From the NCBI RefSeq assembly GCF_002023715.1, contig NZ_MAHX01000018.1, forward strand, positions 248,001-312,000: DNA of 64,000 nt, written 5' to 3'. This document shows positions 11,307-55,041 of this stretch, one piece after another (the first letter of the stretch is position 1; each line of letters opens with the position of its first letter). Made by a program: the position numbers and the translations under genes. The notes under the pieces were generated by a model. That model was not told where the DNA came from, did no database searches, and worked only from the letters and a program-made list of their open reading frames with translations. The DNA is from Elizabethkingia occulta. Lineage in GTDB: Bacteria; Bacteroidota; Bacteroidia; Flavobacteriales; Weeksellaceae.

Positions 11307-11930
11307 ATGGAATCTCTGGAACAGATAATATCATTTAAGTCTTCTCCCAGTCTGGTTGAAAAGCTGTATGAATATGGCATGCAGAAAAACTACGATGCCG
11401 GAACTGTTATCCTTCATGAAAACGCCTGTATTCAGGCTATCCCGATTGTAATGAAGGGAACCTTGAAGGTAATCCGTACAGAGGAAGACGGCAGAGAGAT
11501 TTTATTATATTACATCAAAACCGGAGAAAGTTGTATTATGTCTTTTCTAGGCGGTCTGCATAATGAACCCAGCAAAGTTAAAGCTGAAGTCGAAGAAGAG
11601 GCAGAAATACTTTTCCTGCCTATGGCCAAGGTATCCTTATTCATTAAAGAATATCCACAGTGGCTGGATTATATCTTCCGTTTGTATCATAAGCGTTTTG
11701 AAGAATTACTGGACGTTATCAATTCAATAGCCTTTAAAAAAGTTGACGAACGTTTGCTATCACTACTATACAAAAAGAAAGAACTTACCGGTAAAGATAC
11801 TCTAAGCATTACCCACGAACAGCTGGCTAACGAATTGGGAACAGCCAGAGCTGTTGTTTCGCGGCTCTTAAAACAACTTGAAGACAATGGTGTTCTCCAG
11901 CTTGGGAGAAACAAAATTACCCTTATGTGA
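11307..11930 (+). CDS. CRP/FNR-family regulator of the sulfane-sulfur locus
   Basis: 207 residues. N-terminal cyclic-nucleotide-binding-like beta-roll (about 10-125), a long helix, and a C-terminal winged HTH (LSITHEQLANELGTARAVVS, recognition helix near RLLKQLE). It lacks an iron-sulfur cysteine cluster. Its only cysteines are C41 (ENACIQA) and C76 (GESCIMS); the paralogue at 23769 keeps C76 but has Tyr at 41, which makes a dithiol/persulfide sensor possible here (inference). The genes just downstream are preceded by two near-identical CRP-like dyads at a fixed distance from the -7 box, so it is the prime candidate activator of TauE and the CstB-like operon. Confidence 0.9.
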   Translation: MESLEQIISFKSSPSLVEKLYEYGMQKNYDAGTVILHENACIQAIPIVMKGTLKVIRTEEDGREILLYYIKTGESCIMSFLGGLHNEPSKVKAEVEEEAEILFLPMAKVSLFIKEYPQWLDYIFRLYHKRFEELLDVINSIAFKKVDERLLSLLYKKKELTGKDTLSITHEQLANELGTARAVVSRLLKQLEDNGVLQLGRNKITLM

Positions 11931-11970
11931 CTAAAGTAGCTGTACAGGTTTTTTAGTTGAAGCAATTTTG
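11926..11970 (+). promoter_or_regulatory. Class-II-type CRP/FNR site and -7 box ahead of TauE
   Basis: TGTGACTAAAGTAGCT at 11926-11941 (centre 11933.5) and -7 box CAATTTTG ending in G at 11970, 36.5 bp away. The site overlaps the stop of the regulator gene. The dyad continues with GTACAGG, also found in the second copy at 12795. The -7 box lies downstream of the TTG at 11957, which fixes the TauE start at 11993. Confidence 0.7.
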
Positions 11971-11992
11971 CAGTATCAAACTTAAAAAACAA

Positions 11993-12784
11993 ATGGATAC
12001 AGCAGGATATTTAGCTTCAGTTCTTATAGGAATATCATTAGGATTAATCGGCGGCGGTGGCAGCATTCTTACCGTTCCGGTTCTGGTATACCTGTTTCAT
12101 CTGGATGCTGTCTCTGCAACGGCATATTCTCTCTTTATCGTAGGTGCTACCAGTCTTACAGGTTCCATTTCCTATTTCAGAAAAGGTCTGGTAGATCTTA
12201 AAACAGTTTTCGTGTTTGGTATTCCATCCGTTATTTCTGTTTTTTTCACGAGAACCTATATCATTCCTGTTATTCCTCAGAATATCCTTAGCGTAGGAGA
12301 ATTTACGATCACAAAAAGTATTTTCTTATTGCTGTTATTTGCCATACTCATGATTTTTGCTTCATATGGTATGATTAAAAAGAATAAAGAAACAACCTCA
12401 TCGGAGAAAATACAGTTCAATTATCCTTTAGTAATTACTGAAGGTATACTTATCGGTGTACTTACCGGCCTTATTGGTGCCGGAGGCGGATTTTTAATTA
12501 TTCCTGCTTTGGTTAACTTTATGAAACTTCCCATGAAAACGGCAATCGGAACATCTTTGGTAATTATAGCCATCAACTCCCTGGCAGGTTTCTTATTCTC
12601 TCTGCCACACATCAGTATTCATTGGAATTTCATCCTGAGCATTACAGGGCTTGCCATTATTGGCATACTTGCTGGCAGCTATATTTCAACTAAAATCGAT
12701 GGTAAAAAGCTAAAGCCTGCTTTTGGATGGTTTATACTGATAATGGGTATCTACATTATCACTAAAGAAACCCTGCTGAGCTAA
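11993..12784 (+). CDS. TauE/SafE-family sulfur-anion exporter
   Basis: 263 residues from ATG 11993. A frame extending up to a TTG at 11957 is rejected because the promoter's -7 box lies between. About eight membrane helices in two halves, each opening with a glycine-rich loop: LGLIGGGGSILTVPVLVYLF and VLTGLIGAGGGFLIIPALV, the TauE/SafE signature. Family members export sulfite, sulfoacetate or related anions or move thiosulfate. Lying between a CRP/FNR regulator and a persulfide dioxygenase-rhodanese, it probably removes sulfite made by that enzyme, as TauE does in staphylococcal cst loci (inference from established cst biology). Confidence 0.9.
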   Translation: MDTAGYLASVLIGISLGLIGGGGSILTVPVLVYLFHLDAVSATAYSLFIVGATSLTGSISYFRKGLVDLKTVFVFGIPSVISVFFTRTYIIPVIPQNILSVGEFTITKSIFLLLLFAILMIFASYGMIKKNKETTSSEKIQFNYPLVITEGILIGVLTGLIGAGGGFLIIPALVNFMKLPMKTAIGTSLVIIAINSLAGFLFSLPHISIHWNFILSITGLAIIGILAGSYISTKIDGKKLKPAFGWFILIMGIYIITKETLLS

Positions 12785-12794
12785 GCAATGCTTG

Positions 12795-12839
12795 TGTGAC
12801 AAAAGTAGCTGTACAGGGAAATTGGTATTCCGAAATTTG
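12795..12839 (+). promoter_or_regulatory. Class-II-type CRP/FNR site and -7 box ahead of the CstB-like operon
   Basis: TGTGACAAAAGTAGCT at 12795-12810 (centre 12802.5) followed by GTACAGG, and a -7 box GAAATTTG ending in G at 12839, 36.5 bp away. It differs from the site at 11926 by one base over 22 bp. Confidence 0.72.
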
Positions 12840-12882
12840 TAGTATTAAAAAAATGAATCATTAACGATCTAAAATAAAATTT

Positions 12883-14295
12883 ATGTTTTTTCAACATGTT
12901 TATGACAAAAGTCTAGCACAGGGAAGCTATATCATCGGCTGTCAGGCAACAGGAGAAGCCATTGTAATAGACCCTCAGAGAGATATTGATATTTATCCGG
13001 ATATTGCCGGACAAAACAATCTCCGCATAACAAAAATTACAGAAACCCACATACATGCAGACTTTCTTTCAGGCTCCAGAGAATTGGCAGAAGTAACAGG
13101 TGCAGGATTGTACCTTTCGGATGAAGGTGGCGAAGACTGGCAATACCAGTTTCCACATACAGGATTGAAGGAAGGAGATGTAATCCGTGTCGGAAATCTT
13201 TCTCTGGAAGTATTGCATACACCAGGACATACCCCCGAAAGCATCAGTTTTTTGCTTACAGATCATCCGGCTACGGAGAAACCAGTGATGGTGTTTACCG
13301 GAGATTTTGTATTCGTGGGAGATATTGGCCGTCCGGATTTATTGGAAAAAGCTGCCGGACTTATGGGCACAAAAGAAGCCGGAGCCCGACAGATGTTTCA
13401 GTCTCTGAAAAAATTTGCAGCATTACCAGACTATGTCCAGGTATGGCCGGCCCATGGTGCGGGATCTTCCTGCGGAAAAGCTCTGGGAGCTGTTTCCAGC
13501 TCTACTGTAGGCTATGAAAAAATCCGAAACTGGGCATTTCAGTATGGAGAGAACGAAGAGAATTTCACTGAAAATCTTTTAGATGCTCAGCCGGAACCAC
13601 CGAAGTATTTTGCCATGATGAAGCATCTGAACAAGACAGAACGTCCGTTGCTGACATCTGTTCCCAAACATCCTAAACTAAACAAAGAGGAGTTTAAAAA
13701 TGCTTATGAAAAAGGTATAAGCATTATAGATGCCCGAAATAAGATGAATTTTGCTCGGGGTTTTATTCCCGGTAGTCTAAACATTCAGGGGAACAATTCT
13801 TTTTCCACATGGGCAGGATGGTTACTCAGTTATCAGGAAGAGTTTATTCTGATTTGTGATGATCAGCAAATTGAAGACCTTACCAGAAAGCTTATGCGTG
13901 TAGGGCTGGATAATATATACGGATATATTTCTGACATCAATGATTTAGACATTGAACTTCAAGCAGCTGATATCATCTCTTTGGATGAAATGAAAGCATA
14001 TATACATCAGCCCGATGTACAGATTGTAGATGTACGAAGCGAATCAGAATATAAAGCCGGACATATTGCCGGAGCAGATCATGTTTTTCTGGGAACATTA
14101 CCAGATAATCTGGACAAAATAAGCAAAGACAAGCAGGTGATTATTCACTGTCAGTCGGGTGACCGTTCTGCAATTGCTTATTCCCTTCTGGTCAAAAATG
14201 GTTTTGGAAACATCAAAAATTTCGCAGGCGGAATGAAAAACTGGCTTGCAGATCAGGATAATGTAAATACCGGAATATCCTGTTCCGGGCTGTAG
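12883..14295 (+). CDS. Persulfide dioxygenase-rhodanese fusion (CstB-like architecture)
   Basis: 470 residues in three parts. Residues 1-240 are an ETHE1-type metallo-beta-lactamase domain: THIHADFLSG (metal ligands), VLHTPGHTPESISF, GDFVFVGDIGRPDL and VWPAHGAGSSCGK. Residues ~265-360 are a rhodanese fold without an active cysteine (IIDARNKMNFARGFIPGSLN). Residues ~370-470 are an active rhodanese, IVDVRSESEYKAGHIAGA, with C423 in HCQSGDRSA, and the tail NTGISCSGL. This order (dioxygenase, pseudo-rhodanese, rhodanese) is that of CstB, which turns low-molecular-weight persulfides into thiosulfate or sulfite in the cytoplasm. It heads the operon with thioredoxin and YeeE/YedE. Confidence 0.93.
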   Translation: MFFQHVYDKSLAQGSYIIGCQATGEAIVIDPQRDIDIYPDIAGQNNLRITKITETHIHADFLSGSRELAEVTGAGLYLSDEGGEDWQYQFPHTGLKEGDVIRVGNLSLEVLHTPGHTPESISFLLTDHPATEKPVMVFTGDFVFVGDIGRPDLLEKAAGLMGTKEAGARQMFQSLKKFAALPDYVQVWPAHGAGSSCGKALGAVSSSTVGYEKIRNWAFQYGENEENFTENLLDAQPEPPKYFAMMKHLNKTERPLLTSVPKHPKLNKEEFKNAYEKGISIIDARNKMNFARGFIPGSLNIQGNNSFSTWAGWLLSYQEEFILICDDQQIEDLTRKLMRVGLDNIYGYISDINDLDIELQAADIISLDEMKAYIHQPDVQIVDVRSESEYKAGHIAGADHVFLGTLPDNLDKISKDKQVIIHCQSGDRSAIAYSLLVKNGFGNIKNFAGGMKNWLADQDNVNTGISCSGL

Positions 14296-14336
14296 AAGAG
14301 TACTACAGTTACTTTTAATATTTAATAAAAAACGAT

Positions 14337-14651
14337 ATGAATTTTCAGGAGATCATCAACAGTGACAAACCGGTACTGGTTGATTTTTATGCAGAATGGT
14401 GCGGACCATGTCAGATAATGTTCCCTATCTTAGAGGATGTAAAACAACGTGTGGGAGATAGTGCCGGCATTATTAAAATAGATATAGATAAAAACCAACA
14501 GCTTGCAGCTGCTTATAAAATAAGAAGCATTCCTACACTTATTGTATTTAAAAATGGTGAGATACGCTGGCGCCAATCAGGAGTATTTCCTGCAAATGAA
14601 TTAGAGCGATTGATTAACGAAAATACGGAGAATAATGTTAGAACTTATTAA
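14337..14651 (+). CDS. Thioredoxin
   Basis: 104 residues, the size of a classic cytoplasmic thioredoxin, with WCGPC (C22, C25) after LVDFYAE and the cis-proline segment SIPTLIVFKNG. It lies 41 bp after the persulfide dioxygenase gene, and its last 17 bases overlap the next gene, so it is co-translated with the YeeE/YedE half. A likely job is reducing protein persulfides or recycling the rhodanese cysteine (inference). Confidence 0.95.
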   Translation: MNFQEIINSDKPVLVDFYAEWCGPCQIMFPILEDVKQRVGDSAGIIKIDIDKNQQLAAAYKIRSIPTLIVFKNGEIRWRQSGVFPANELERLINENTENNVRTY

Positions 14652-15198
14652 ACAACCATGGCCCTGGTACGTGGCCGGACCATTAATCGGATTAACTGTT
14701 CCTGCCTTACTTATTTTAGGAAACAAATCTTTTGGTATCAGCGGAACATTACGTAATGTTTGTGCTTCATGTATGCCTGCCAATATTCCGTTTTTTAAAT
14801 ATGACTGGAAAAAAGAAATCTGGAACTGGTTTTTTGTTATCGGTATCTTCTTTGGCGGGGTCATTGCCTCAGTATTTTTAGCCAATCCCCACCCTATCGA
14901 AGTCAGCCCTGATCTGGCATCTGAACTCGCAGGTTATGGAATTACCAATTATAATAATCTGGTTCCGGAAGATATCCTGAACTGGCAGTCACTCTTTACC
15001 CTAAAAGGTTTTCTGATGATGGTTGTGGGTGGATTTTTAGTTGGTTTCGGATCTCGTTATGCCGGAGGTTGTACAAGTGGCCATGCCGTAATGGGATTAT
15101 CCAACCTGCAACTGCCTTCACTGATTGCCACAATATGTTTTATGATTGGCGGCTTTATTATGGCTAATCTAATATTACCTATCATCTTATCACTTTAA
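14635..15198 (+). CDS. YeeE/YedE-family protein, first half (thiosulfate-uptake-like)
   Basis: 187 residues with about four or five membrane helices. The conserved cysteine motif SRYAGGCTSGHAVMGLSNL is that of the first conserved half of YeeE/YedE (DUF395) proteins; in YeeE such cysteines relay thiosulfate across the inner membrane. The start ATG overlaps the thioredoxin stop by 17 bp. In many Bacteroidota the transporter is encoded as two half-size proteins, and the second half follows 11 bp downstream. Confidence 0.9.
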   Translation: MLELIKQPWPWYVAGPLIGLTVPALLILGNKSFGISGTLRNVCASCMPANIPFFKYDWKKEIWNWFFVIGIFFGGVIASVFLANPHPIEVSPDLASELAGYGITNYNNLVPEDILNWQSLFTLKGFLMMVVGGFLVGFGSRYAGGCTSGHAVMGLSNLQLPSLIATICFMIGGFIMANLILPIILSL

Positions 15199-15209
15199 AT
15201 ACAGATACA

Positions 15210-15698
15210 ATGAAACAAAATACAGACAATAAAGTACAATCGGCGGAGCTGATATGCGCTAATGAAAATACTCCGGCAGATAAATGGTACACCAATATCA
15301 GGTACCTGATTGTGGGTATATTATTCGGTATTATATTTATAAAAGCAGAAGTAATCAGTTGGTTTCGCATACAGGAAATGTTCCGCCTGCAATCCTTTTT
15401 CATGTATAAAGTAATTGGAAGTGCGGTAATAACCGGTATTATTTCCGTTCAGATTATTAAAAGATTCAACATAAAAACAATCGATGGAAATCCAATTAAC
15501 ATAGCCCCAAAGAAATTCAGCAAAGGACAAATCTACGGTGGTTTGATCTTTGGATTGGGCTGGGCGCTAACAGGAGCTTGTCCGGGATCTTTTTTCGCAC
15601 AAATCGGAACAGGAGCTACAGTAATTATTGTTACTCTTCTCAGTGCTATTGCCGGAACATGGGTTTACGGATATTTACGGGAAAAACTTCCCCACTAG
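15210..15698 (+). CDS. YeeE/YedE-family protein, second half
   Basis: 162 residues with a hydrophilic ~28-residue N-terminal tail and about four membrane helices. The motif GLGWALTGACPGSFFAQIGTG carries the second conserved cysteine of the YeeE/YedE family. It probably pairs with the preceding half to form one sulfur-compound channel. Last gene of the operon, followed by a strong terminator. Confidence 0.88.
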   Translation: MKQNTDNKVQSAELICANENTPADKWYTNIRYLIVGILFGIIFIKAEVISWFRIQEMFRLQSFFMYKVIGSAVITGIISVQIIKRFNIKTIDGNPINIAPKKFSKGQIYGGLIFGLGWALTGACPGSFFAQIGTGATVIIVTLLSAIAGTWVYGYLREKLPH

Positions 15699-15734
15699 AT
15701 GTAATGTAATCTATTCCACTTTATATAATAGAAG

Positions 15735-15770
15735 AAGGCCGCGCAGATTTTTTAAATCTGTGCGGCTTTT
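15735..15770 (+). terminator. Terminator of the sulfur operon
   Basis: Long stem GCCGCGCAGATTT / AATCTGTGCGGC (one G-T wobble), with AA on the left and TTTT on the right. Confidence 0.85.
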
Positions 15771-15923
15771 GGTTAATTCCATCCCGAATGTAACATTATA
15801 ATACCTACTGTTGTCTTTAAGTAAAAACGGTAAAATCTTTTTGGATTAACCAAAATATGCTGTAACCTGATTTAAGTATATTTGATTTGAATAGAGTTCA
15901 GATAACACACAAATACAATTTAT

Positions 15924-17012
15924 ATGAGAAACAATATTTTCCTGCTCATTCTCTTCACATATTCTTTTATATGTTTTGGGCAGAACAATCAGCAATCCAA
16001 TGAATATACTAAAGCCAGAGAAATCATCAAAGATCTTGATTCTATTGTTTCTCCAGATGGAATTCAGGAAAGATATAAAGCTGATATTGGTGGTATAAAA
16101 CAATGGGTATATGTTCGTGGCCAGAATAAAGAAAATCCTGTAATATTATTTGTACACAGAGGCCCGGCATCGCCTGTTTCCCCTATAATGTGGATGTTTC
16201 AAAGGCCTATTGAGGAATACTTTACTGTAGTAAATTACGACCAGAGAGCTGCCGGAAAAACTTATAATGCCAATGATACTCTTACTCTGGGAAAAACTAT
16301 TAATATAAACCAATACACTGATGATGCTATAAAACTTGCTGAGCTTATTATCAAAAAGTATAAGAAGAAAAAAGTTATTCTTGTAGGTCACAGCTGGGGT
16401 ACTATCGTATCTATGCATGCAGCTCTGAAAAGACCTGATTTGTTCTATGCTTATGTAGGAATAGGTCAGGTAATAAACACCCGGGAAAATGAACGCCTGA
16501 GTTATAATTATGCTATAGAACAAGCAACAAAATTAAAGAATGATAAAGCCTTAAAAGAGCTTGCCACAATTGCGCCTTATCCCGGCAACAAGCCTATTAC
16601 CAGACAACGAATTATTGTTGCCCGAAAATGGCCTCAATATTATGGAGGATTAACTGCTTACAGGAATAATTCTGTTTACTTTTTCCAGGCTCCGTTATTG
16701 GCACCTGAATATACGGAACAAGATGCAGATGCTATCGGCAAAGGAAGTCTGTTTACCTTAAGCAAAATACTTCCGGAATTTGTAAATACAGACTTCACTT
16801 CTGTTAAAAAATTCCCTATCCCCGTATTTATGTTTATGGGGCGACATGATTACACAACCCCAACCGAACCTACATATAAATGGTTGCAGCAAGTAAAAGC
16901 ACCTGTAAAAAAAGGAATATGGTTCGAAAACTCAGCACATATGATTATGTTGGAAGAACCTGGAAAGATGCTCGTTACTCTTCTCAATGATGTAAAACCT
17001 GTCTGTCAATAA
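15924..17012 (+). CDS. Exported alpha/beta hydrolase, proline-iminopeptidase-like
   Basis: 362 residues. Sec signal peptide in the first ~20 residues (LLILFTYSFICFGQ). Alpha/beta fold: VILFVHRGPASP where peptidase-family members have HGGPG, FTVVNYDQRAAGKTY, nucleophile elbow LVGHSWGT, an acid near FMGRHDYTTP and a His in ENSAHMIMLEEP. The full triad is present, but the oxyanion-hole motif is altered (HRGPAS), so substrate range may differ from true proline iminopeptidases. Monocistronic with a terminator. Specific substrate unknown. Confidence 0.82.
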   Translation: MRNNIFLLILFTYSFICFGQNNQQSNEYTKAREIIKDLDSIVSPDGIQERYKADIGGIKQWVYVRGQNKENPVILFVHRGPASPVSPIMWMFQRPIEEYFTVVNYDQRAAGKTYNANDTLTLGKTININQYTDDAIKLAELIIKKYKKKKVILVGHSWGTIVSMHAALKRPDLFYAYVGIGQVINTRENERLSYNYAIEQATKLKNDKALKELATIAPYPGNKPITRQRIIVARKWPQYYGGLTAYRNNSVYFFQAPLLAPEYTEQDADAIGKGSLFTLSKILPEFVNTDFTSVKKFPIPVFMFMGRHDYTTPTEPTYKWLQQVKAPVKKGIWFENSAHMIMLEEPGKMLVTLLNDVKPVCQ

Positions 17013-17035
17013 TACTTAGTCAGTATTTTCAGCAT

Positions 17036-17075
17036 AAAAAACCTCACAGATTTTCATAATCTGTGAGGTTTTTAA
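17036..17075. terminator. Bidirectional terminator
   Basis: AACCTCACAGAT / ATCTGTGAGGTT stem with A5 on the left and T5 on the right, between the hydrolase and the convergent DUF1634 gene. Confidence 0.85.
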
Positions 17076-17093
17076 ATTAAATGTTTTTTATTC

Positions 17094-17495
17094 TTAGCCC
17101 TTTACACCACTGAAAATACTAAAGAATATAACGCCCAGTACAATAAGGGTAATGATAATATAAAGCTTATCTTTTTCCATGGTAAACCCTATTAATGAGA
17201 AAAAGACACGAAATACAGGTGTAGCCACCAGAAAAACAACACCTAATTGAATAAGCTGAGCGGCCTGTAAATGAAATGCTCCGGATACAATCCCGCTTAG
17301 CGTTGTATTAGATTTACCTTCTCCGACAAAATGTCTGTAATCCGGTAATGCTTCTCCTCCGTGATTGATAAGGTACATAATCCCTCCTGCTAAAACAGTA
17401 ATAGAAGCTATTGTAACTCCCATTCTCAGAATCTTGCCAACCAGTAATTGTATATCCTGGTCTGCCCAGTAATGTTCAGAAAAATACTTTTTCAT
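17094..17495 (-). CDS. DUF1634 membrane protein
   Basis: 133 residues with three predicted membrane helices (MGVTIASITVLAGGIMYLI, QLGVVFLVATPVFRVFF, IIITLIVLGVIFF). This is the DUF1634 family, which commonly accompanies TauE/SafE genes and may be an accessory subunit. Its start overlaps the stop of the upstream TauE gene, so it is translationally coupled. Confidence 0.85.
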   Translation of the reverse strand: MKKYFSEHYWADQDIQLLVGKILRMGVTIASITVLAGGIMYLINHGGEALPDYRHFVGEGKSNTTLSGIVSGAFHLQAAQLIQLGVVFLVATPVFRVFFSLIGFTMEKDKLYIIITLIVLGVIFFSIFSGVKG

Positions 17496-18981: not shown

Positions 18982-18998
18982 TATTAAAAATTACAGCA

Positions 18999-19028
18999 CA
19001 AAGATATGATGTACCAATTAAAACATCA
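18999..19028 (-). promoter_or_regulatory. Promoter and operator of the GntR-TauE-DUF1634 operon
   Basis: Minus-strand -7 box TATCTTTG (19006-18999), and directly upstream the inverted repeat TGATGT-N10-ACATCA (19007-19028) containing TTGGTAC. A regulator bound there would block the -33/-7 region. Confidence 0.55.
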
Positions 19029-19143
19029 GATGAATTTAAATTGATTATTTAAATAATTATTGTGGAGTATTATAGATAGTATCATATTATCTACCAGCTA
19101 ATTGAATTATAGAAAAGCCTGAATCCGATAAGGTTTAGAAATG

Positions 19144-19179
19144 AAAAGCCCTGTAAAGATTTAGTTTTACAGGGCTTTT
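19144..19179. terminator. Terminator of the OsmC gene
   Basis: AAAAGCCCTGTAAA / TTTACAGGGCTTTT, 14-bp stem with flanking A and T runs. Confidence 0.85.
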
Positions 19180-19199
19180 ATCAAGATTTTTACAAACTA

Positions 19200-20598: not shown

Positions 20599-20618
20599 TT
20601 TTTTTTTAAGAATGTGAG

Positions 20619-23580: not shown

Positions 23581-23625
23581 AGGTAACATTTGTTACAAAC
23601 AAAACTAAATATCAGTCACATTTTT
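23581..23625 (+). promoter_or_regulatory. Class-II-type CRP/FNR dyad and -7 box upstream of the second CRP gene
   Basis: GTAACATTTGTTAC dyad at 23582-23595 (centre 23588.5); -7 box CATTTTTG ending in G at 23625, 36.5 bp away. Same dyad (opposite orientation of the central bases) and same geometry as at 27396. Suggests autoregulation of the CRP/FNR gene at 23769. Confidence 0.65.
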
Positions 23626-23698
23626 GCGACCGCTTAGGCAAAAAAACACAATAACAATTTTTTTGAAATAAAGATTGAACAATAAATATGATGAACTA

Positions 23699-23800
23699 AT
23701 GAAACCACAAAAAAAGAAGAAAAAAAATGTACTGCCCGAAATAAAATCCCCACACAAATGCTGTAATCATGGAAAGTTTAAGAGAGATTACAGCGTTTAA
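23699..23800 (+). CDS. Possible lysine-rich leader ORF overlapping the CRP/FNR start
   Basis: 33 codons beginning MKPQKKKKKNVLPEIK and overlapping the first 32 bases of the CRP/FNR gene in another frame. A start-stop overlap of this kind can couple translation, but poly-A in an AT-rich leader can also produce it by chance. Confidence 0.2.
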   Translation: MKPQKKKKKNVLPEIKSPHKCCNHGKFKRDYSV

Positions 23801-24413
23801 ATATACGCCCGAGATTGTAGAACAGTTACACCAAAACAGTATAAAGAAAGTCTATAAAGCCGGAACCGTTATCCTGAGAGAAAATGCTTATGCCAACGCT
23901 ATACCTATTGTTACCAAAGGACTGTTGAAGGTGATCCGAAAAGAAGAGGAAGACCGCGAAATACTGCTGTACTACATCAAAAAAGGAGAAACCTGTGTAC
24001 TGCCCTTCTGGGGAAGTTTGTACAATGTAGCAAGCAAAGTAAAAGTAGAAGTGGAAGAAGAAGCCGAAATTTTTTTTCTGCCGATTCAGAAAGCTAAGCT
24101 TTTTATAAGAGAATATCCACAATGGATGGATTATGTCTTGCTGCTGTTTGTGAACCGGTATGAAGATTTGCTGAATGTCATTGATTCTGCTTTTAAGAAA
24201 ACTGATGAACGTTTACTGAGCTTTCTGAAAAATAAAGCTGAGATCACACAATCAAGATCTATTAATATTACACACCAACAGTTGGCAAAAGAATTACTGA
24301 CAGCCCGTGTTGTTGTTTCCCGACTGCTAAAACAATTGGAAGAAAAAGGATTGTTACAGTTGAGCAGAAACAAAATTACGCTGACAGATCAGGCTGATTT
24401 TTTCAGCTATTGA
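23769..24413 (+). CDS. CRP/FNR-family regulator (paralogue of 11307)
   Basis: 214 residues, collinear with the regulator at 11307 from the first residues (MESLREITAFKYTPEIVEQL). Beta-roll domain, then a winged HTH (INITHQQLAKELLTARVVVS, RLLKQLEEKGLLQLSRNKI). It keeps one cysteine (C76, GETCVLP) and has Tyr at position 41 where the paralogue has Cys. A CRP-like dyad lies upstream at 23582 and an equivalent dyad lies before the DUF4822 gene at 27396, both with the same spacing to -7, so it probably activates itself and that gene (inference). It precedes the small peptide and FISUMP gene. Confidence 0.9.
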   Translation: MESLREITAFKYTPEIVEQLHQNSIKKVYKAGTVILRENAYANAIPIVTKGLLKVIRKEEEDREILLYYIKKGETCVLPFWGSLYNVASKVKVEVEEEAEIFFLPIQKAKLFIREYPQWMDYVLLLFVNRYEDLLNVIDSAFKKTDERLLSFLKNKAEITQSRSINITHQQLAKELLTARVVVSRLLKQLEEKGLLQLSRNKITLTDQADFFSY

Positions 24414-27395: not shown

Positions 27396-27440
27396 TGTAA
27401 CAAATGTTACAAAAAGAGAGAAAAATTACCCACATATTTG
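27396..27440 (+). promoter_or_regulatory. Class-II-type CRP/FNR dyad and -7 box ahead of the DUF4822 gene
   Basis: TGTAACAAATGTTACA at 27396-27411 (centre 27403.5), symmetric except for the two central bases. The -7 box CATATTTG ends in G at 27440, 36.5 bp away. It leaves a ~70-nt leader. Confidence 0.68.
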
Positions 27441-27514
27441 TAAAACAAAACACAATTAACTGCCTGTAAAGGCTTACTACATTTTTCTGTAAGACAATTT
27501 AAAATTTCAAAACT

Positions 27515-28363
27515 ATGAAGAAGTTTTTTTTAGCTTGGGCAGCAGCGCTGGCCATGGTCCTAATTTCATGTTCACGTGACAATGATAGCAACACGGAAAT
27601 ACCATTAACGCCAAGCCAGACTCTGGCCTCTACACCATGGAAAACCACAGAAGCAAAGGATAGAAACGGAAACAATGTAGACCTTAATGATCCAAGAGTA
27701 AACGGGTTTGTAGGTTGGGCTTACTTCCGAGCAAACGGTAGCTTTGCCATTTATGGACTGAATGATGTTCTGAGATCAGTAGGAACATGGACTGTAGATG
27801 CACAAGGAAAAACAAGAAACATCAAAGTATTGAATCCTGACGGAAGAGTTCTTGTAGACCGCGATGTAGAGATCCTTGAGCTAAACAAAGATATTTTCAC
27901 GTATAGAATTCATAGCGACAGCAGCGATCCTGCAAATTATTATGATATTATCCATACCAGAACTTCTCATGTAGAACCAGCCAACGGACAGGTAACTTTG
28001 GCATCTACACCTTGGGAAACTACCGGAGCCAAAGACAATACAGGGAATTCGGTAGCCTTGAATGATCCTAGAGTAGCAGGATTTGTAGGCTATTCTTACT
28101 TCAAAGGAAACGGGCAGTTTACAATTTTCGGATTGGATGATGTACTAAGATCCAGCGGAGCATGGACTTTGTCTGCAGACGGAAAGGTTAGAAACCTGAA
28201 CGGAACAGTTGCTGCTACAGGAGCGCCTTTCAACCGTGATGTAGAAGTTTTGGTACTGACCAATACTGAGTTCACCTACAGAATTGTACCTGATACTAAC
28301 AACCCATCTGTATTCTACGATATCATCCACACTAAGGTAAACCATATGGAACCAAGAAATTAA
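27515..28363 (+). CDS. Lipoprotein with two tandem DUF4822 domains
   Basis: 282 residues. Lipoprotein signal with lipobox LISC (about residue 19). Two closely similar repeats of ~120 residues follow, roughly 35-150 and 160-280: each opens LASTPW-TT-AKD-GN-V-LNDPRV-GFVG, has YF...NG.F.I.GL.DVLRS and closes with RDVE-L, FTYRI and YDIIHT. The high similarity of the halves points to internal duplication. DUF4822 has no assigned function. It is probably controlled by a CRP/FNR regulator (dyad at 27396). Confidence 0.82.
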   Translation: MKKFFLAWAAALAMVLISCSRDNDSNTEIPLTPSQTLASTPWKTTEAKDRNGNNVDLNDPRVNGFVGWAYFRANGSFAIYGLNDVLRSVGTWTVDAQGKTRNIKVLNPDGRVLVDRDVEILELNKDIFTYRIHSDSSDPANYYDIIHTRTSHVEPANGQVTLASTPWETTGAKDNTGNSVALNDPRVAGFVGYSYFKGNGQFTIFGLDDVLRSSGAWTLSADGKVRNLNGTVAATGAPFNRDVEVLVLTNTEFTYRIVPDTNNPSVFYDIIHTKVNHMEPRN

Positions 28364-46805: not shown

Positions 46806-46825
46806 TGTTTTAAAATTTAGTCCTA

Positions 46826-47641: not shown

Positions 47642-47666
47642 ACAATATCCAGTTGTTGAAGCTCTT

Positions 47667-47753
47667 TTATATCACACCATAATAAGCTTTCTGAATATCT
47701 TTTTTCTTGAGCTGTTCTTTATATACTTGTATACAATCGTTTAATATTTTCAT
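47667..47753 (-). pseudogene. Truncated DUF7000-like N-terminus
   Basis: A 28-codon minus-strand ORF reading MKILNDCIQVYKEQLKKKDI then QKAYYGVI and stop. This resembles the first 28 residues of DUF7000-type proteins, which normally continue with a ~70-residue conserved domain; here a stop follows directly and no continuation is seen in any frame. Likely a decayed gene just downstream of the GNAT stop. Confidence 0.35.
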
Positions 47754-47763
47754 TTTTCTTGTA

Positions 47764-48495: not shown

Positions 48496-48513
48496 TCTTT
48501 GTTTTTTAGATAT

Positions 48514-49467
48514 TTAGTGTTTGTGTCTTTTTCTGTACTGTAACGGAGTAAGTCCGGTTTGTTTCTTAAAAAATCGTCCGAAATAAGAATCATCTGCAAA
48601 CTGAAGTTCCGTTGCAATCATGGATACTGTATCACTGGTTTGCACCAGACGTGATTTGGCCTCCTGAATAAGCTGTTTCTGTATAAAATAACTTGCCGGA
48701 AAGCCTGTAATTTCCTTTACCACATCATTAAGATAGTTGGGGTGGACATGCAATAGCTCTGCATATTCATTTACTTGTTTTTTATCCAGAAAATACTGAT
48801 TTACAAATAACTGAAACTGAGCTACCAGTTGCTCCTGTCTGGAAAGACTAAAAGTCTCCTCGGCAGATGTTTTACGGTGTATCCTTTCTGCTTCCAATAA
48901 AATAACATTCAGAAACATCCTTACCAGAAGGTCATCGTTGAATGTAGATTTCTGGCACATCTCACTATTCAGTTTCCAGAAAAGATGTTCCATCATCAGG
49001 GTCTCGCGCTCCGAAAGCTTAATAAACGGCTTCTGATCTGTCTGAAAAAAAGGAAACTGATTTAACTTGATCTGATGCTTAATACATAACAGAAAATAAT
49101 CTACATCGAACATACACAGTATACCTTTTATATTTTCATCCCATTTTTCTGTAGAATAAAGTTGGTTTTCAGAAATAAAGTACATAGATCCCGGTCCAAA
49201 ATGGTATTTTTTGTGCCCGATTGTTTCTTCCGTCTCTCCTTCTGTAAGCAGTATAATACTATAGAACTTTCTTCTTGTCCGGTCTCCGAATGTCTTCTTC
49301 TGTATCTTCTTCAGTTCTTCCAGTGCTATGACTTCCAAAAAACCATTCCCATATATATACTCTATTGTAATACACTCCTCGCAGAATGAATGATGAGCAT
49401 CGTTCAAATAAAATTCTTTGAATTCCTGTGGATTACTAATTTCTTTAATATCGGAAGATCTAGACAT
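48514..49467 (-). CDS. AraC-family transcriptional regulator
   Basis: 317 residues: N-terminal cupin-like ligand domain (HKKYHFGPGSMYFISENQLY), C-terminal double HTH (~235-315: VNEYAELLHVHPNYLNDVVK, IATELQFADDSYFGRFFKKQ, TGLTPLQYRKRH). Sits inside the GNAT/deaminase/methyltransferase run, 10 bp after a GNAT gene, and may control the run. Confidence 0.92.
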   Translation of the reverse strand: MSRSSDIKEISNPQEFKEFYLNDAHHSFCEECITIEYIYGNGFLEVIALEELKKIQKKTFGDRTRRKFYSIILLTEGETEETIGHKKYHFGPGSMYFISENQLYSTEKWDENIKGILCMFDVDYFLLCIKHQIKLNQFPFFQTDQKPFIKLSERETLMMEHLFWKLNSEMCQKSTFNDDLLVRMFLNVILLEAERIHRKTSAEETFSLSRQEQLVAQFQLFVNQYFLDKKQVNEYAELLHVHPNYLNDVVKEITGFPASYFIQKQLIQEAKSRLVQTSDTVSMIATELQFADDSYFGRFFKKQTGLTPLQYRKRHKH

Positions 49468-49477
49468 TTTTATATTT

Positions 49478-50059
49478 TTAGGAGATGATTTTTACAAACT
49501 TGCGGTAGAACTCTTTTGGGTCCAGGTTATGATAAATACTAAGAAAATCTTTTTCCATATCTATGCTCTCTACGCCAGCCTCAATGGGCATGTACAAAAG
49601 GCGGAAATCTACTCCTACTACTTCTGCTGTCACAGCTGTCATTTCCACGCCGTTCCTTTCATAAAAAGCAATTCTTTTTTCTCTTATCAACCGCTCTTCT
49701 TCATTTATTGCTTTTTCCGGCGCCTCACATTCTATAATAAAACCTTTAGCCTTTATACTTTGAGCCAATTTCTGAAGGAATATAGAGCCAATCCCGCCTC
49801 CACGACCAGCTTCCTGCGTTACTGCAAAATAATCCAATAACAGCAAATCTTTCTCCTTCCACATAAAAGAGGCATAGGCTTTCACTTTAGAATCTTCTTC
49901 CAGTGCGTAAGCAGTATATTTATTAGCAGCAAATGCGTTTTCTATTACATACAGTGGTTTTATCTCATCTTCAGGAAAATCCTCCACAAGATATCGGTTG
50001 TATATATCACTAAATTCTGTAAAGCTAATTTCTCTGGTTACCTGCATTTTTCTTTTCAT
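49478..50059 (-). CDS. GNAT-family acetyltransferase
   Basis: 193 residues: KVKAYASFMWKEKDLLLLDY, AVTQEAGRGGGIGSIFLQKL (acetyl-CoA loop GRGGGIG), ECEAPEKAINEEERLIREKR, IAFYERNGVEM. Resembles small-molecule N-acetyltransferases. 27 bp after the deaminase gene. Substrate unknown. Confidence 0.85.
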   Translation of the reverse strand: MKRKMQVTREISFTEFSDIYNRYLVEDFPEDEIKPLYVIENAFAANKYTAYALEEDSKVKAYASFMWKEKDLLLLDYFAVTQEAGRGGGIGSIFLQKLAQSIKAKGFIIECEAPEKAINEEERLIREKRIAFYERNGVEMTAVTAEVVGVDFRLLYMPIEAGVESIDMEKDFLSIYHNLDPKEFYRKFVKIIS

Positions 50060-50086
50060 TTATCTCTATTAATCTTCTGGTAGTCA

Positions 50087-50476
50087 CTACCATTCTCTTT
50101 CTAAATCTTCTTTCCAGTCATACGGCAGTATTTCGCCAAGACTTTTATATATTCCGTTTTTTACTTCTACAACAGCTTCAAGGTTTTGTTTAGAGAGCTG
50201 GCTCATCAGTTCTCTGCATCGTCCACATGGTGGAACTGCATTTCCATCGTTATCCACAGCTACTACAGCCTGAATAACAGATTCTCCGTTTTTCAGCATT
50301 TCTGCAACAGCACTATGTTCTGCACAAAATCCCATAGAGCATGCTGTATCTATACTAATACCGGTATAAACATTTCCGGCAACTGTTTTTATAGCTGCAG
50401 CAACTCCGCCGTATTCTATAAAATCATTCAGAACTCTGGATTTGGCATATTGATGTGCTATTTTTTTTAAATCCAT
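50087..50476 (-). CDS. Cytidine deaminase-family protein
   Basis: 129 residues. Zinc-site motifs CAEHSAV (C51, E53) and PPCGRC (C84, C87), in the all-cysteine arrangement of tetrameric CDAs; YKSLGEILPYDW at the C-terminus fits. Deaminates cytidine or a related nucleoside; the size also matches blasticidin-S deaminases, so a drug-modifying role is possible. 7 bp after the methyltransferase gene. Confidence 0.87.
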   Translation of the reverse strand: MDLKKIAHQYAKSRVLNDFIEYGGVAAAIKTVAGNVYTGISIDTACSMGFCAEHSAVAEMLKNGESVIQAVVAVDNDGNAVPPCGRCRELMSQLSKQNLEAVVEVKNGIYKSLGEILPYDWKEDLEREW

Positions 50477-50483
50477 AATGTTA

Positions 50484-51206
50484 TTATTTTATACAGTTAA
50501 AAATTACAATTGGCGGACGTTCCACATGTAGTCTGAAATCAGGTCTTGATATAAGAAGTGCTTCGTCAGGAGTTGGTTCCTCTATATTTTTGATACAGAA
50601 TCCTGCTTTTGATAATTCATGTACAAGTGTACTTAGTTTTCTGTGGTATTTAATAACTCCATCTACAAACCAATTCTGCTTTCTTATTCCCTCTTTACCA
50701 TATTGGTTCAGAAGCCACGACGGACTGCCATTAACCTCTTTCCAACCATTTTGTGAAGCTGTGCAAACCGGATGTTCTACCGAAAAAAGGAACTGTCCTT
50801 TATTATTCAGTCCTTCATAAATTTTATGAAGTAATGGTTTTATATCTTCAATATAATGCAATGCCATAGAACTGATGACAATATCAAAATTTTTAGGTTC
50901 TATTGTATAATCTTCAATCGCAGTACATTGTAAAGATACTCTGGAATCATTCAGCCTTCTTTTGGCTTCAGCTATCATTTTTTCAGAAATATCAATACCG
51001 GTAATAGCAATCGGATTCTGCTCCAGTACAGCCTGAATCTGATGTCCGAATCCACACCCAATATCCAAAATACTTTTCCCGTTTGCATTATACATAAGCC
51101 TCTTCATAACGGGTTGCTCCAACAATTCGTTCAAACCTTTATCCTTATCCCTAAGGTCTTTATAGGCCTCAAAAAACTCAGGGTTATCATAAATATTTTG
51201 CTTCAT
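50484..51206 (-). CDS. Class I SAM-dependent methyltransferase
   Basis: 240 residues. SAM-binding motif I ILDIGCGFGHQIQAVL, acidic ITGIDISEKMIAEAKRRL, motif FDIVISSMALHYIED. C-terminal LFSVEHPVCTASQNGW is typical of the small-molecule methyltransferase group. Substrate unknown. In the nine-gene run. Confidence 0.9.
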   Translation of the reverse strand: MKQNIYDNPEFFEAYKDLRDKDKGLNELLEQPVMKRLMYNANGKSILDIGCGFGHQIQAVLEQNPIAITGIDISEKMIAEAKRRLNDSRVSLQCTAIEDYTIEPKNFDIVISSMALHYIEDIKPLLHKIYEGLNNKGQFLFSVEHPVCTASQNGWKEVNGSPSWLLNQYGKEGIRKQNWFVDGVIKYHRKLSTLVHELSKAGFCIKNIEEPTPDEALLISRPDFRLHVERPPIVIFNCIK

Positions 51207-51261
51207 CTTCTCTTACTTCTTAAATTCTGTATTCCGTTTAGTCTGTCATTTATTTCCGAAA

Positions 51262-52179
51262 CTATGTATGTGATAAAAAAGGAACAACTAGTTTTTGTTC
51301 TTCGAACATACGATATAACTCTTCAGACACATACAACACCGTATCTTCCTCTGTCAGCAACTCATACTCAAAACCTTCCTCTAATGGTGTAAAACCCAAT
51401 CGTACAGAAGTAAACTCCTCATGGATAAAGGCAGCAACAATCTGCTGTAGATCGACCATATTTTTGCTAAAAACTTCTGTAATTTCCAAAGCTTTTTCCT
51501 TCACATTAGCCACTACAATAGCTTCTAATTCTTCAATGTAGCATATAGTATCTTTATGCCCAAAGTCGGGGTAAGCATAACAATAAAACATTGATATGCC
51601 TTTACTTTGGACTGGTAAAGCCGTATTAGCCAGATTACTTTCTACCAAATTTGTGAATAAATCCAGATCCTCTCGATTGTCCAGGTTTAGTTTTCGTATC
51701 CCGACAGACGTAGAAAAATCTTTATTTGTTATATTTTTAAAAGCCTGATATTCTGCTACCGGTCTGAATCCGAATTTCGGATAAAAGTCCAATACACTGT
51801 CATTGGCAAACAGCAGCATCCCATCCGTTTTTTGTTTAAAATCTGCCAGAACCCGTTCCATCAGAAAACGACTTAGTCCTTTATTCTGATATTCAGGATC
51901 TGTCATTACGGTCCCAAACTGCAATAATTTCTTTTTCTCACCCTCAATCTCAGTATCAAAAAGACTTGCCGTAACATGAGATACTATTCTCTCTCCTTCG
52001 AACAGGGAATACACAATACAGTTATCATCCCAAAAACCACTCTGATAAAAGTTCTCAAAGGTGAATTCCCAAACCTGCTGTGTAAGCCTGTTCAGCTCTT
52101 CTCTTAATTTCTCATCATTTTGATAAGCAATAGCGAGGGTATAACTATGTTCGTGTATATTTACTTTTTCTAAATGCAT
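51262..52179 (-). CDS. GNAT-family acetyltransferase
   Basis: 305 residues: ERIVSHVTASLFDTEIEGEK, LQFGTVMTDPEYQNKGLSRF (acetyl-CoA loop YQNKGLS), LFANDSVLDFYPKFGFRPVA. The C-terminal ~130 residues form an additional domain of unknown role. 28 bp after GrpB. Confidence 0.85.
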   Translation of the reverse strand: MHLEKVNIHEHSYTLAIAYQNDEKLREELNRLTQQVWEFTFENFYQSGFWDDNCIVYSLFEGERIVSHVTASLFDTEIEGEKKKLLQFGTVMTDPEYQNKGLSRFLMERVLADFKQKTDGMLLFANDSVLDFYPKFGFRPVAEYQAFKNITNKDFSTSVGIRKLNLDNREDLDLFTNLVESNLANTALPVQSKGISMFYCYAYPDFGHKDTICYIEELEAIVVANVKEKALEITEVFSKNMVDLQQIVAAFIHEEFTSVRLGFTPLEEGFEYELLTEEDTVLYVSEELYRMFEEQKLVVPFLSHT

Positions 52180-52207
52180 TTTTTACGTTTTAAAGCCTCA
52201 TCAAGGT

Positions 52208-52813
52208 TTAAATTCTGCTCTTATTGTCTTTATACCAGCGAATTGCTTTTTGTTCTTCATCTTGTATAAAATCATTTTTAGCGTCATTATATTCATTCCC
52301 ATCCTTCCACTTTTTTTTCCCAATTTCCTCTTTTAGCTTCTGATATTCGGTCAGTACAACAGGATGTGTCCGAAGGTAATCCCGAAAAGCGATATGACGC
52401 AGCCAATGTTCCGAACCCACAGGTATTACATGTATATGGGCCATTCTTAAATCATGATCGTGAAGCTTCTCCGGAATTTCATCTCCTTTATTAATCTGTT
52501 CAGGAAAAGACCATTCGGAAGGTTTGGCTTTTAGCTTTACAAAAAATCTTCGGTAAGGCATATCTTCATTGTATTTTTCATAATACACATACTGATTCCC
52601 GGCTAATAAAATCGGAATTTTATCTAAATCATCTTCAGAATTAACACCTATCATAATATCGATAACAGGCTTTGCAGAAAGTCCCTCTACGGATGTACTT
52701 CCTATATGCTGAATATCTGTATGTAATGTAGATGTTAATTCTTCTAGTTCCTGTCTCAGTTCTTCAAACTGTTTTTTCCAGTCAGGATTATATTTTTCTA
52801 TGGTGAGCTGCAT
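52208..52813 (-). CDS. GrpB-family nucleotidyltransferase-like protein
   Basis: 201 residues from ATG 52813; an upstream in-frame ATG at 52873 would overlap the hydrolase gene by 44 bp and adds nothing conserved. TIEKYNPDWKKQFEELRQEL opens the domain; LHTDIQHIGSTSVEGLSAKP and VIDIMIGVNS form the GS...D.D.-type nucleotidyltransferase core; RMAHIHVIPVGSEHW follows. GrpB proteins resemble minimal nucleotidyltransferases; their substrate is unknown, and some are near antibiotic-resistance genes. Confidence 0.88.
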   Translation of the reverse strand: MQLTIEKYNPDWKKQFEELRQELEELTSTLHTDIQHIGSTSVEGLSAKPVIDIMIGVNSEDDLDKIPILLAGNQYVYYEKYNEDMPYRRFFVKLKAKPSEWSFPEQINKGDEIPEKLHDHDLRMAHIHVIPVGSEHWLRHIAFRDYLRTHPVVLTEYQKLKEEIGKKKWKDGNEYNDAKNDFIQDEEQKAIRWYKDNKSRI

Positions 52814-52829
52814 GATTGGAAAGTAGTAT

Positions 52830-53894
52830 TTATGAATATAATGTTCGGGGTCTTTTTCTGCCGAAAACAGCATCTTCTAACTTCTGAAGTATTTCCTTTT
52901 CGATATCTTCGGTATCAGGCTTATTACAGAGCAGAATGACGGATATTCCGCTATTCAAATATAAAGAATTATAGGTAAAATACCCAGGCCAGCCACCTGT
53001 ATGGTATACCTGCTTTTCATCATTCTTTTTTTCATCAAGCTCCCACCCTAATCCATATGAAAATACTTGTTCATCATTATTTACTGTAGGTTCAAACATC
53101 AGATCCAGATATTTCTCATCTACTAAATACTGTTCCAGTATCGCATTATTCCATATCAACAGATCATCCAATGTAGAGTTAACTGTTCCATCACCCTGTA
53201 TACCGTCCAGATAATAAACATACTCTTCTCCTTTTATTTCATCCGGCAACTTTAATTTTCCAGTCTCCGGATCACTTAAAACACCAAACGCATAATCAGG
53301 AATTAACTGCGGATTTTTCCGTCTGTTATATACCATGGTATTGTTCATGTCCAATGGTCTGAAAATATATTTCTGAAGTACTTCGGAGAAAGTAAAGCCT
53401 GTTATTTTTTCCAGAATTACAGCCAGTATTACATAACCCGTATTACAATAATCCCATTGTTCACCAGGATTAAAATAAACTTTAGGGCGAAGAGCTGTTA
53501 ATAGCCCTACTACGTCACTATTATCTGCAATAATCGTTTTATCCCAAAACTCTTCAAACAATTCTATATAATCAGGCAATCCTGAAGTATGATTGAGTAA
53601 TTGAAAAACGGAAATTCCTTCATAGGGAAAATCCGGAAGAAAATACTTTACGTCGGTATGCAGAGACAGATGATATATATCCAAAACCTTTAACATGGCA
53701 AAAGCTGTAAATGGTTTGGAAACAGACGCAAGCTCAAAAACTGAGGCTCTGCTCAGTTCTCGTTTTTCTTCCGGATGATAAGTATTGCCGAACGACCCTG
53801 TATATAGTACCTTACGTCGTTCGGCAATCATTATATTTCCATTAAATTTTATTTTTTTTATATAATTTTCAAGTATATCAAATACGTTCTTCAT
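52830..53894 (-). CDS. Serine hydrolase, class C beta-lactamase/PBP4-like
   Basis: 354 residues. SxxK motif at S57-V-S-K60 (FELASVSKPF), YxN as YCNTGY (WDYCNTGYVIL) and HTGG near the C-terminus (QVYHTGGWPGYF), the beta-lactamase class C/AmpH order. No signal peptide is evident, unusual for a peptidoglycan or beta-lactam hydrolase, so it may be a cytoplasmic esterase or D-peptidase. Follows DUF418 by 7 bp. Confidence 0.87.
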   Translation of the reverse strand: MKNVFDILENYIKKIKFNGNIMIAERRKVLYTGSFGNTYHPEEKRELSRASVFELASVSKPFTAFAMLKVLDIYHLSLHTDVKYFLPDFPYEGISVFQLLNHTSGLPDYIELFEEFWDKTIIADNSDVVGLLTALRPKVYFNPGEQWDYCNTGYVILAVILEKITGFTFSEVLQKYIFRPLDMNNTMVYNRRKNPQLIPDYAFGVLSDPETGKLKLPDEIKGEEYVYYLDGIQGDGTVNSTLDDLLIWNNAILEQYLVDEKYLDLMFEPTVNNDEQVFSYGLGWELDEKKNDEKQVYHTGGWPGYFTYNSLYLNSGISVILLCNKPDTEDIEKEILQKLEDAVFGRKRPRTLYS

Positions 53895-53901
53895 TAATTT
53901 T

Positions 53902-54978
53902 TTAGTTTGAAATTTTTCGCATCAACATTTCCAAAGGCCCCTGTTTAAACTTCTTGCTCCAAAAGATGCTGAAATAAATACTAATAATAAAGTAACCTAC
54001 AGAGAATAATAAAATATAAACGGGCTGTAAAGGCGGCTGTCCTCCTAATTCTCCCGAATAATAATCGCCTCGTAAAAGTGCCAGTATCACAAGACCAATC
54101 GTAAGATGAGATACATAATGTGTAAGTGTCATCTGCCCTGTTTTAGCCAGATCTATCGCCCACTGTTTATCCGAAATATACAGGCTTACATACATGAAAG
54201 CTGCAATAAGCATCATTCCAAAGCTTAGAGTATTGATTACAAAAGGTAAAAACGGTGGAATATAATCTGAATGGATAAATTCCATAACCTTTGGACTAAG
54301 ATTAAGATAAGGGCTTGCAAAACGAATCATCTCAATAAAAATGAATAACACAAGTCCTATTAAAAACATTTTACGTTGGGTCTGTTTTTGCGTCCAGTCC
54401 TGTCTTCCTAAATATAAACCTACAGCGAAATACGCAAACCATGGAAATATAGGATTCCATCCATTGTAGAATGTATTCCGGAGAAAACCTTCTACTGTCC
54501 AGAAATCCAGATATTGTAAATTCTGAAAATCCCACCCTGTCTCATAAGGGATAAATAGTAACAGAATATGAAAGACCGCCACAGTAATACCAGCAGCTAT
54601 TAGGTAGTACTTTTTATCCATGAACACCAGCAAAGCACCTATACTCATATACCCACCATACAAATGCAGGATATCTGCAGGCCACCACAGATAAAAAAGT
54701 ACTCCAAAAACAAATAGGAATGCTGCACGCTTCAGAATTGTTGTTCTTAATCTTTTTCTGTCTTCTTCGGTGTATTCTGAAATCCGGTTTGTCATCAGTG
54801 CCACACCCATACCCGCCAACATAACGAAGACTGTACTGGAATGTCCGCTAAACAGGGTCAGGAACTTACTCATGAAACTATTATCTTCTTTCCCAAAGAC
54901 AATATTAAAGTTTACAATAAACATCCCAAAAATAGCATAAGCCCTGGCCAGATCAAATCCGATAATCCTTTTCTTCAT
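53902..54978 (-). CDS. DUF418-family membrane protein
   Basis: 358 residues from ATG 54978; an ATG 21 bp upstream (54999) lies before the -7 box and is rejected. About ten membrane helices; FDLARAYAIFGMFIVNFN and FSGHSSTVFVMLAGMG, then GQMTLTHYVSHLTIG and a tail FWSKKFKQGPLEMLMR, typical of DUF418 proteins related to acyltransferase-3/DUF1624. Leads a nine-gene run. Regulated by a CRP/FNR-like dyad at 55026. Confidence 0.88.
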   Translation of the reverse strand: MKKRIIGFDLARAYAIFGMFIVNFNIVFGKEDNSFMSKFLTLFSGHSSTVFVMLAGMGVALMTNRISEYTEEDRKRLRTTILKRAAFLFVFGVLFYLWWPADILHLYGGYMSIGALLVFMDKKYYLIAAGITVAVFHILLLFIPYETGWDFQNLQYLDFWTVEGFLRNTFYNGWNPIFPWFAYFAVGLYLGRQDWTQKQTQRKMFLIGLVLFIFIEMIRFASPYLNLSPKVMEFIHSDYIPPFLPFVINTLSFGMMLIAAFMYVSLYISDKQWAIDLAKTGQMTLTHYVSHLTIGLVILALLRGDYYSGELGGQPPLQPVYILLFSVGYFIISIYFSIFWSKKFKQGPLEMLMRKISN

Positions 54979-54996
54979 GTTGCATATATTCCGCAG

Positions 54997-55041
54997 CAAA
55001 AATCACGATTACCATCCAACCAGCCTTTGACAAATGTCAAA
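54997..55041 (-). promoter_or_regulatory. Class-II-type CRP/FNR dyad and -7 box of the DUF418-led run
   Basis: Dyad TTTGACAAATGTCAAA at 55026-55041 (centre 55033.5), symmetric but for the two central bases; on the minus strand the -7 box GATTTTTG ends in G at 54997, 36.5 bp away. The leader to ATG 54978 is about 12 nt. A CRP/FNR gene lies at 55832-56398. Confidence 0.68.

Follow-up and report, generated by a model that had tools for sequence, protein, structure and literature searches.

In Escherichia coli, class II promoters that depend on CRP or FNR carry the dyad of the activator centred at -41.5, and their core element TATAAT has its last T at -7. Here we describe five putative promoters with a comparably rigid layout in a 64,000-nucleotide stretch of the Elizabethkingia occulta genome (NCBI RefSeq assembly GCF_002023715.1, contig NZ_MAHX01000018.1, positions 248,001 to 312,000 of the forward strand; hereafter the window, numbered from its first letter). 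At each of them a CRP/FNR-type dyad, i.e., two half-sites around N4, is centred 36.5 base pairs (bp) from the last G of a core box of the form nAnnTTTG. The arrangement resembles E. coli class II promoters in its homologous activator family, its N4 dyad, its single exact position over the upstream element, and its weakened core, but the core is nAnnTTTG, with the G at -5, instead of TATAAT, and the primary sigma factor differs. Because the box ends with G at -5 and TATAAT ends with T at -7, the distance to the box is 36.5 bp and not 34.5 bp as in E. coli.

In the same phylum, the Bacteroides protein BT4338/Cur has the binding consensus wwwTATGTTnTAnAACATAwww (PMC6989115, PMC3878776) and is a demonstrated activator (PMC6989115). 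The present sites share with its regulon a Crp-family activator and an N4 palindrome upstream of a -7 box, but the half-site differs, and no peak at 36.5 was seen in the G534 family among the Cur-type matches listed. HcpR, PgRsp, and CrpPg of Porphyromonas gingivalis likewise belong to the CRP/FNR superfamily of Bacteroidota, a likeness drawn from their descriptions; the title of the CrpPg paper describes this protein as independent of cAMP, and the passage seen of PMC12040651 gives no dyad-to-promoter spacing for these proteins. We found no statement of the spacing described here in the literature searched, for which most subscription journals were beyond reach, so its absence is unproven. 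In other phyla, sulfide and persulfide operons are regulated by CstR, FisR, and SqrR/BigR, which control genes for a persulfide dioxygenase, rhodanese, and sulfur transport, as predicted at sites 1 and 2 of the window, and have sensing cysteines. These regulators belong to other families, whereas the candidate here is a CRP/FNR protein with one invariant cysteine.

The numbering of the promoters follows the flavobacterial transcriptome papers. In 241 promoters of Flavobacterium johnsoniae, T-12, A-11, T-8, T-7, T-6, and G-5 are nearly invariant (PMC6847099), and the box of F. psychrophilum is given as spanning -12 to -5 (PMC9723704). Since the last G of TAnnTTTG is thus at -5, a distance of 36.5 bp would put the dyad centre at -41.5, and we infer this position for the promoters of the window.

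The five sites were read in the window, the distance from the dyad centre to the last G of the box was measured by script, and the predicted +1 was set at the fifth base past that G (Table 1). A sequence-only reading of this DNA had put all five distances at 36.5 bp, and so they proved to be; its coordinates are exact for sites 1, 2, 4, and 5, but both of its numbers for site 3 are one too low, with the distance nevertheless right. It had also described the boxes as keeping TTTG and lacking TA. TTTG is indeed kept, but the first T alone is missing, and the A at the second place is retained in 5/5 boxes. The dyad of site 4 is the sole perfect TGTAAC-N4-GTTACA in the genome; at sites 1 and 2, the right half-site (GTAGCT) is asymmetric and imperfect. 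The right half-site covers the place of a -33 element.

Relatives of the sulfur locus, to which sites 1 and 2 belong, carry the same spacing across genera. We gathered 80 Bacteroidota loci around relatives of the metallo-beta-lactamase (MBL)-rhodanese protein encoded behind site 2, from Flavobacterium, Chryseobacterium, Sphingobacterium, Pedobacter, Chitinophagaceae, Algoriphagus, and others, and counted dyads of the form TGTRAC-N4-GTNRC on both strands, with those near locus ends excluded. There were 158 dyads, 147 of them distinct, and 107 had TTTG at exactly +36.5. After collapsing at 80% spacer identity, the position relative to the core box is fixed, with 74/107 at 36.5, 2 at 35.5, and 0 at 34.5, 37.5, and 38.5; the other offsets have a mean of 0.67 and a maximum of 7. 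Even at 60% spacer identity, 44/72 dyads are still at 36.5. The lesser peaks before collapse lie at 20.5 (18), -6.5 (8), and 25.5 (7), and that at 20.5 is due, by eye, to a TTTTTG common to related spacers. Within 200 bp upstream of the MBL gene (uncollapsed), an exact dyad is present in 53/80 loci, 46 of these with TTTG at 36.5. When up to two mismatches are allowed in the same 200 bp, a best dyad is found in 64/80, with TTTG at 36.5 in 50, at 35.5 in 1, and at 47.5 in 2, while 200 mononucleotide shuffles have means of 10.1 dyads and 0.04 pairings per 80. The comparison with other spacings and with shuffled DNA, which the sequence-only reading had proposed as its check, therefore places 36.5 far beyond chance in the relatives, and the offset profile and the shuffles rule out TTTG at 36.5 as a by-product of AT-richness.

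The cores of these sites are weakened in a particular way. Among the 74 collapsed sites, the base at -12 is T in 30, G in 26, and C in 18, so that T-12 is missing in 44/74; A-11 is kept in 70, and the base at the predicted +1 is A in 57. Promoters of F. johnsoniae hardly vary at either T-12 or A-11, whereas the sites at 36.5 keep A-11 and often lose T-12. Given what is known of sigma-70, keeping A-11 and dropping T-12 is in line with a promoter where melting is preserved but unaided binding of polymerase is poor.

Two scans not chosen by the sulfur locus extend the spacing to a second dyad class. With TGTAAC-N4-GTTACA-N{10,40}-TTTG in 198 genomes of the phylum, 9/42 matches are at 36.5 and the other lengths average 1.1 (Poisson 2e-6); by eye, the box is nAnnTTTG in 9/9, and site 4 is one of them. 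With TTTGAC-N4-GTCAAA-N{10,40}-TTTG in 196 genomes of the order, 13/49 are at 36.5 and the others average 1.2 (Poisson 6e-10); nAnnTTTG is present in 9/13, site 5 being one of the thirteen and a site on contig C7 of the same genome another. Within the genus, Elizabethkingia sp. YR214 retains the geometry of sites 1 and 2. In the same-genus genome G241, the second Crp gene and the DUF4822 gene (sites 3 and 4) have orthologues that are preceded by the dyad and nAnnTTTG at 36.5, with N4, flanks, and spacer altered and the geometry unchanged, and the DUF418 orthologue retains site 5.

In the E. occulta genome itself, the composite TGTRAC-N4-GTNRC-N23-ANNTTTG with at most one mismatch matches exactly sites 1-4, with 0 matches for the reversed control; AnnTTTG covers 0.2% of strand positions in the window. 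The word TGTAAC-N4-GTTACA has 18 places in the genome at up to one mismatch, 15 of which were read in both orientations, and nAnnTTTG stands at 36.5 in 2/15 (sites 3 and 4). For TTTGAC-N4-GTCAAA there are 16 such places, 15 of them read in the same way, with nAnnTTTG at 36.5 in 3/15, including site 5. The two further sites are on contig C7 (L138 1501-1545 and L147 1501-1545), where they flank a Crp-type gene and precede a UspA-like gene, named by eye, and a siderophore-interacting flavoprotein gene.

With a probability of about 0.85, we consider that CRP/FNR-family dimers use the five sites for class II-type activation of weakened Bacteroidota sigma-A (sigma-ABfr) promoters. The fixed distance in Elizabethkingia and many relatives suggests that the proteins activate with the E. 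coli geometry despite the different promoter. The sequence-only reading had put forward class II activation by CRP/FNR proteins on a core peculiar to the phylum; the comparative geometry and the adjoining CRP/FNR genes support this idea, but the boxes keep A-11 and the rule fails for some CRP-like dyad classes. We infer binding, activation, and contacts as follows. A dimer would bind the 16-bp dyad with N4 at its centre, 36.5 bp upstream of G-5 of nAnnTTTG and hence at -41.5. The downstream half-site would occupy the place of the -33 element, so that the bound protein could contact both region 4 of sigma and the alpha subunits; these contacts may compensate for a promoter without a usable -33 element and T-12. 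Little has been described of how activators act in Bacteroidota, whose sigma factor and promoter are divergent. A fixed -41.5, if true, means that the class II arrangement persisted across phyla through a change of the core box. The rule of a dyad, 21 bp, and nAnnTTTG would then serve to predict, in flavobacteria and their relatives, which genes CRP/FNR proteins activate and where transcription of these genes starts.

Several observations weigh against this reading or narrow it. By themselves, the dyad words show no genomic enrichment, with 18 places against 17 in the control for TGTAAC and 16 against 29 for TTTGAC; as the composite matches sites 1-4 against 0 for its control and the words occur about as often as their controls or less, the pairing is what stands out, and a genome-wide TGTAAC-dyad regulon in this genome is unsupported. 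The exact dyad is absent from 27/80 of the MBL upstream regions, and 7/53 dyads lack TTTG at 36.5. Matches in the 198- and 196-genome scans were counted without collapsing homologues, and the same-genus genome G219 has no match for the three proteins searched (second Crp, DUF4822, and DUF418). The stop codon of the crp gene (11928-11930) sits inside the left half of site 1 (11926-11931), and this coding constraint explains part of that half-site; TGA and TAA crp stops would account for TGTGAC and TGTAAC in relatives. As for the numbering, F. johnsoniae starts lie 4 or 5 nucleotides past the box (PMC6847099), so a centre at -42.5 is possible. The -33 element, TTTG, is hardly visible in F. johnsoniae (PMC6847099), and a replacement of -33 by the half-site is therefore a weaker notion than in Bacteroides.

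Other dyad classes depart from the spacing itself. TGTGAC-N4-GTCACA has 11 matches in 246 genomes of the order, 5 at 37.5 and 2 at 36.5; three of the five at 37.5 look like one homologous promoter, and A-11 is present in 2/5 of their boxes. This class preferring 37.5 includes G000:C19:22553-22598. Cur-type TATGTT-N4-AACATA, in 295 genomes of the class, has 0 at 36.5 and 5 at 37.5 (by eye). In the 121 genomes of the G534 family there are at least 150 Cur-type matches, and among the matches listed 3/150 show the 36.5 distance by eye, with nAnnTTTG in 2 of these; the 85 nAnnTTTG boxes among the matches listed include 26 at 22.5-25.5, 6 at 33.5, 26 at 45.5-48.5, and 2 at 36.5. These G534 Cur-type offsets are spaced roughly one helical turn apart, unlike the 36.5 layout. 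Given the 37.5 group and the Cur-type layout, the rule cannot be called universal for the phylum, and the TGTGAC-type and Cur-type scans reject the proposal that every Bacteroidota Crp acts at 36.5. Dyads of the TGTNAC/TGTRAC type and of the TTTGAC class follow the rule, but not every Crp-like dyad of the phylum does; the exceptions point to distinct modes inside one phylum.

The same CRP/FNR proteins might instead use the dyads as repressor operators, where a dimer over -33 blocks polymerase and the distance reflects promoter cover. Occlusion is conceivable with the right half-site over the -33 region, and the Cur-type dyads at other distances from nAnnTTTG may include repression sites, but a steric block needs no exact phase in base pairs, against 74 sites at 36.5 beside 2 at 35.5 and 0 at 37.5. 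The weakened T-12 (not T in 44/74), as expected under activator dependence, also argues against repression, which we regard as improbable. An activator of a different family at -41.5 is less probable still. The N4-spaced TGTNAC and TTTGAC half-sites are CRP/FNR-like, a CRP/FNR gene adjoins each site class, and the type of recognition helix changes with the class (TARVVVSR-like with TGTRAC, ETLSR with TTTGAC); in favour of such an activator, binding to the dyads is itself predicted, and the right half of sites 1 and 2 (GTAGCTGTACA) is extended and asymmetric.

To common descent or chance we give the smallest share of all. Conserved intergenic DNA of a sulfur operon can look rigid, and five sites could be hand-picked in an AT-rich window; sites 1 and 2 are in fact homologous to sites in relatives, and the dyad words show no enrichment of their own. 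The results contradict this explanation: 44/72 dyads stay at 36.5 after the 60% spacer collapse, the two scans independent of the sulfur locus peak at the same distance, and sites 3 and 4 of G241 hold the geometry while N4, flanks, and spacer changed.

The activators proposed for these class II-type sites can be sought among three CRP/FNR proteins mentioned in the sequence-only reading, all of which are present in the window. P0001 and P0002 have cNMP-binding and HTH_Crp domains above the Pfam cut-off and fall in the CRP/FNR superfamily. P0003 has cNMP_binding above the cut-off without an HTH match, and its ETLSR recognition helix was read by eye. The P0001-type Crps have a TARVVVSRLLK-like helix in common, and the TTTGAC sites adjoin Crp-type proteins of 188-189 amino acids with an FNR-like ETLSR helix; P0003 and the C7 Crp, which is also beside TTTGAC dyads, are 31% identical. 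The proposed partners are P0001 at sites 1 and 2 and P0002 at site 3, before its own gene, and at site 4; at site 5, as for TTTGAC in general, the candidate is a Crp with the ETLSR helix, P0003 or a paralogue.

In the P0001-type Crps, C76 is invariant in 33/33 aligned proteins and is the only cysteine in 28/33. Among solved chains, the closest is 3dv8 (Crp/Fnr family), where a cysteine occupies the position aligned with C76; in the alignment to CRP chains of E. coli, C76 is located immediately ahead of the phosphate-binding cassette. This cassette is GEL...RS in CRP. P0001 lacks it in the sequence alignment to the CRP chains, with EPSK opposite ERSA (ETSK in most relatives), and cyclic AMP is not favoured as its ligand, as the cassette is not kept. 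As a tentative proposal, which we hold to be somewhat less than an even chance, the P0001 type may be a thiol-based sensor of reactive sulfur, whose dimer with persulfidated C76 would activate, from a strict -41.5 site on promoters without T-12, the genes for sulfite export, sulfur transport, and the persulfide dioxygenase-like protein. The proposal is attractive with sulfur genes standing behind the sites; if true, a class II activator that senses sulfur directly would occur across Bacteroidota.

Table 1. Dyads, -7 boxes, and associated genes in the window (boxes are listed with the predicted start and leader)
Feature	Sequence	Position	Strand	Details
Site 1 dyad	TGTGACTAAAGTAGCT	11926-11941	+	36.5 bp to box G at 11970
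Site 1 -7 box	CAATTTTG	11963..11970	+	predicted +1 A at 11975; 18-nt leader to ATG 11993
Site 2 dyad	TGTGACAAAAGTAGCT	12795-12810	+	36.5 bp to box G at 12839
Site 2 -7 box	GAAATTTG	12832..12839	+	predicted +1 A at 12844; 39-nt leader
Site 3 dyad	GGTAACATTTGTTACA	23582-23597	+	centre 23589.5; 36.5 bp to box G at 23626
Site 3 -7 box	CATTTTTG	23619..23626	+	predicted +1 C at 23631; 138-nt leader
Site 4 dyad	TGTAACAAATGTTACA	27396-27411	+	36.5 bp to box G at 27440
Site 4 -7 box	CATATTTG	27433..27440	+	predicted +1 A at 27445; 70-nt leader
Site 5 dyad	TTTGACATTTGTCAAA	55041-55026	-	36.5 bp to box G at 54997
Site 5 -7 box	GATTTTTG	54997..55004	-	predicted +1 G at 54992; 14-nt leader to ATG 54978
Crp/Fnr-family regulator P0001, 207 aa, sulfur locus		11307..11930	+	Pfam cNMP_binding and HTH_Crp_2; gene precedes site 1
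TauE/SafE sulfite exporter-like gene behind site 1		11993..12784	+	Pfam PF01925
MBL-fold/rhodanese fusion behind site 2		12883..14295	+	Pfam; followed by thioredoxin and two Sulf_transp genes
Second Crp/Fnr regulator P0002, 214 aa, behind site 3		23769..24413	+	Pfam; 63% identical to P0001
DUF4822 gene behind site 4		27515..28363	+	Pfam PF16103
DUF418/HGSNAT_cat membrane protein gene behind site 5		53902..54978	-	Pfam, scanned without first codon
Short Crp/Fnr-type protein P0003, 188 aa		55832..56398	-	Pfam cNMP_binding; 0.8 kb upstream of site 5, same strand

As to the genes behind the sites, the MBL-rhodanese protein has its nearest named relative in Elizabethkingia sp. YR214 (94%). NCBIfam gave nothing above its cut-off for this fusion, and persulfide dioxygenase-like is therefore a putative name. 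The ATG start of the DUF418 gene lies within a longer open reading frame with a TTG start. Between the short Crp gene and site 5 (55035-55821), direct repeats of an 86-nt and a 203-nt family are present, with the best copies 94% alike, and the same interval also contains an inverted repeat.

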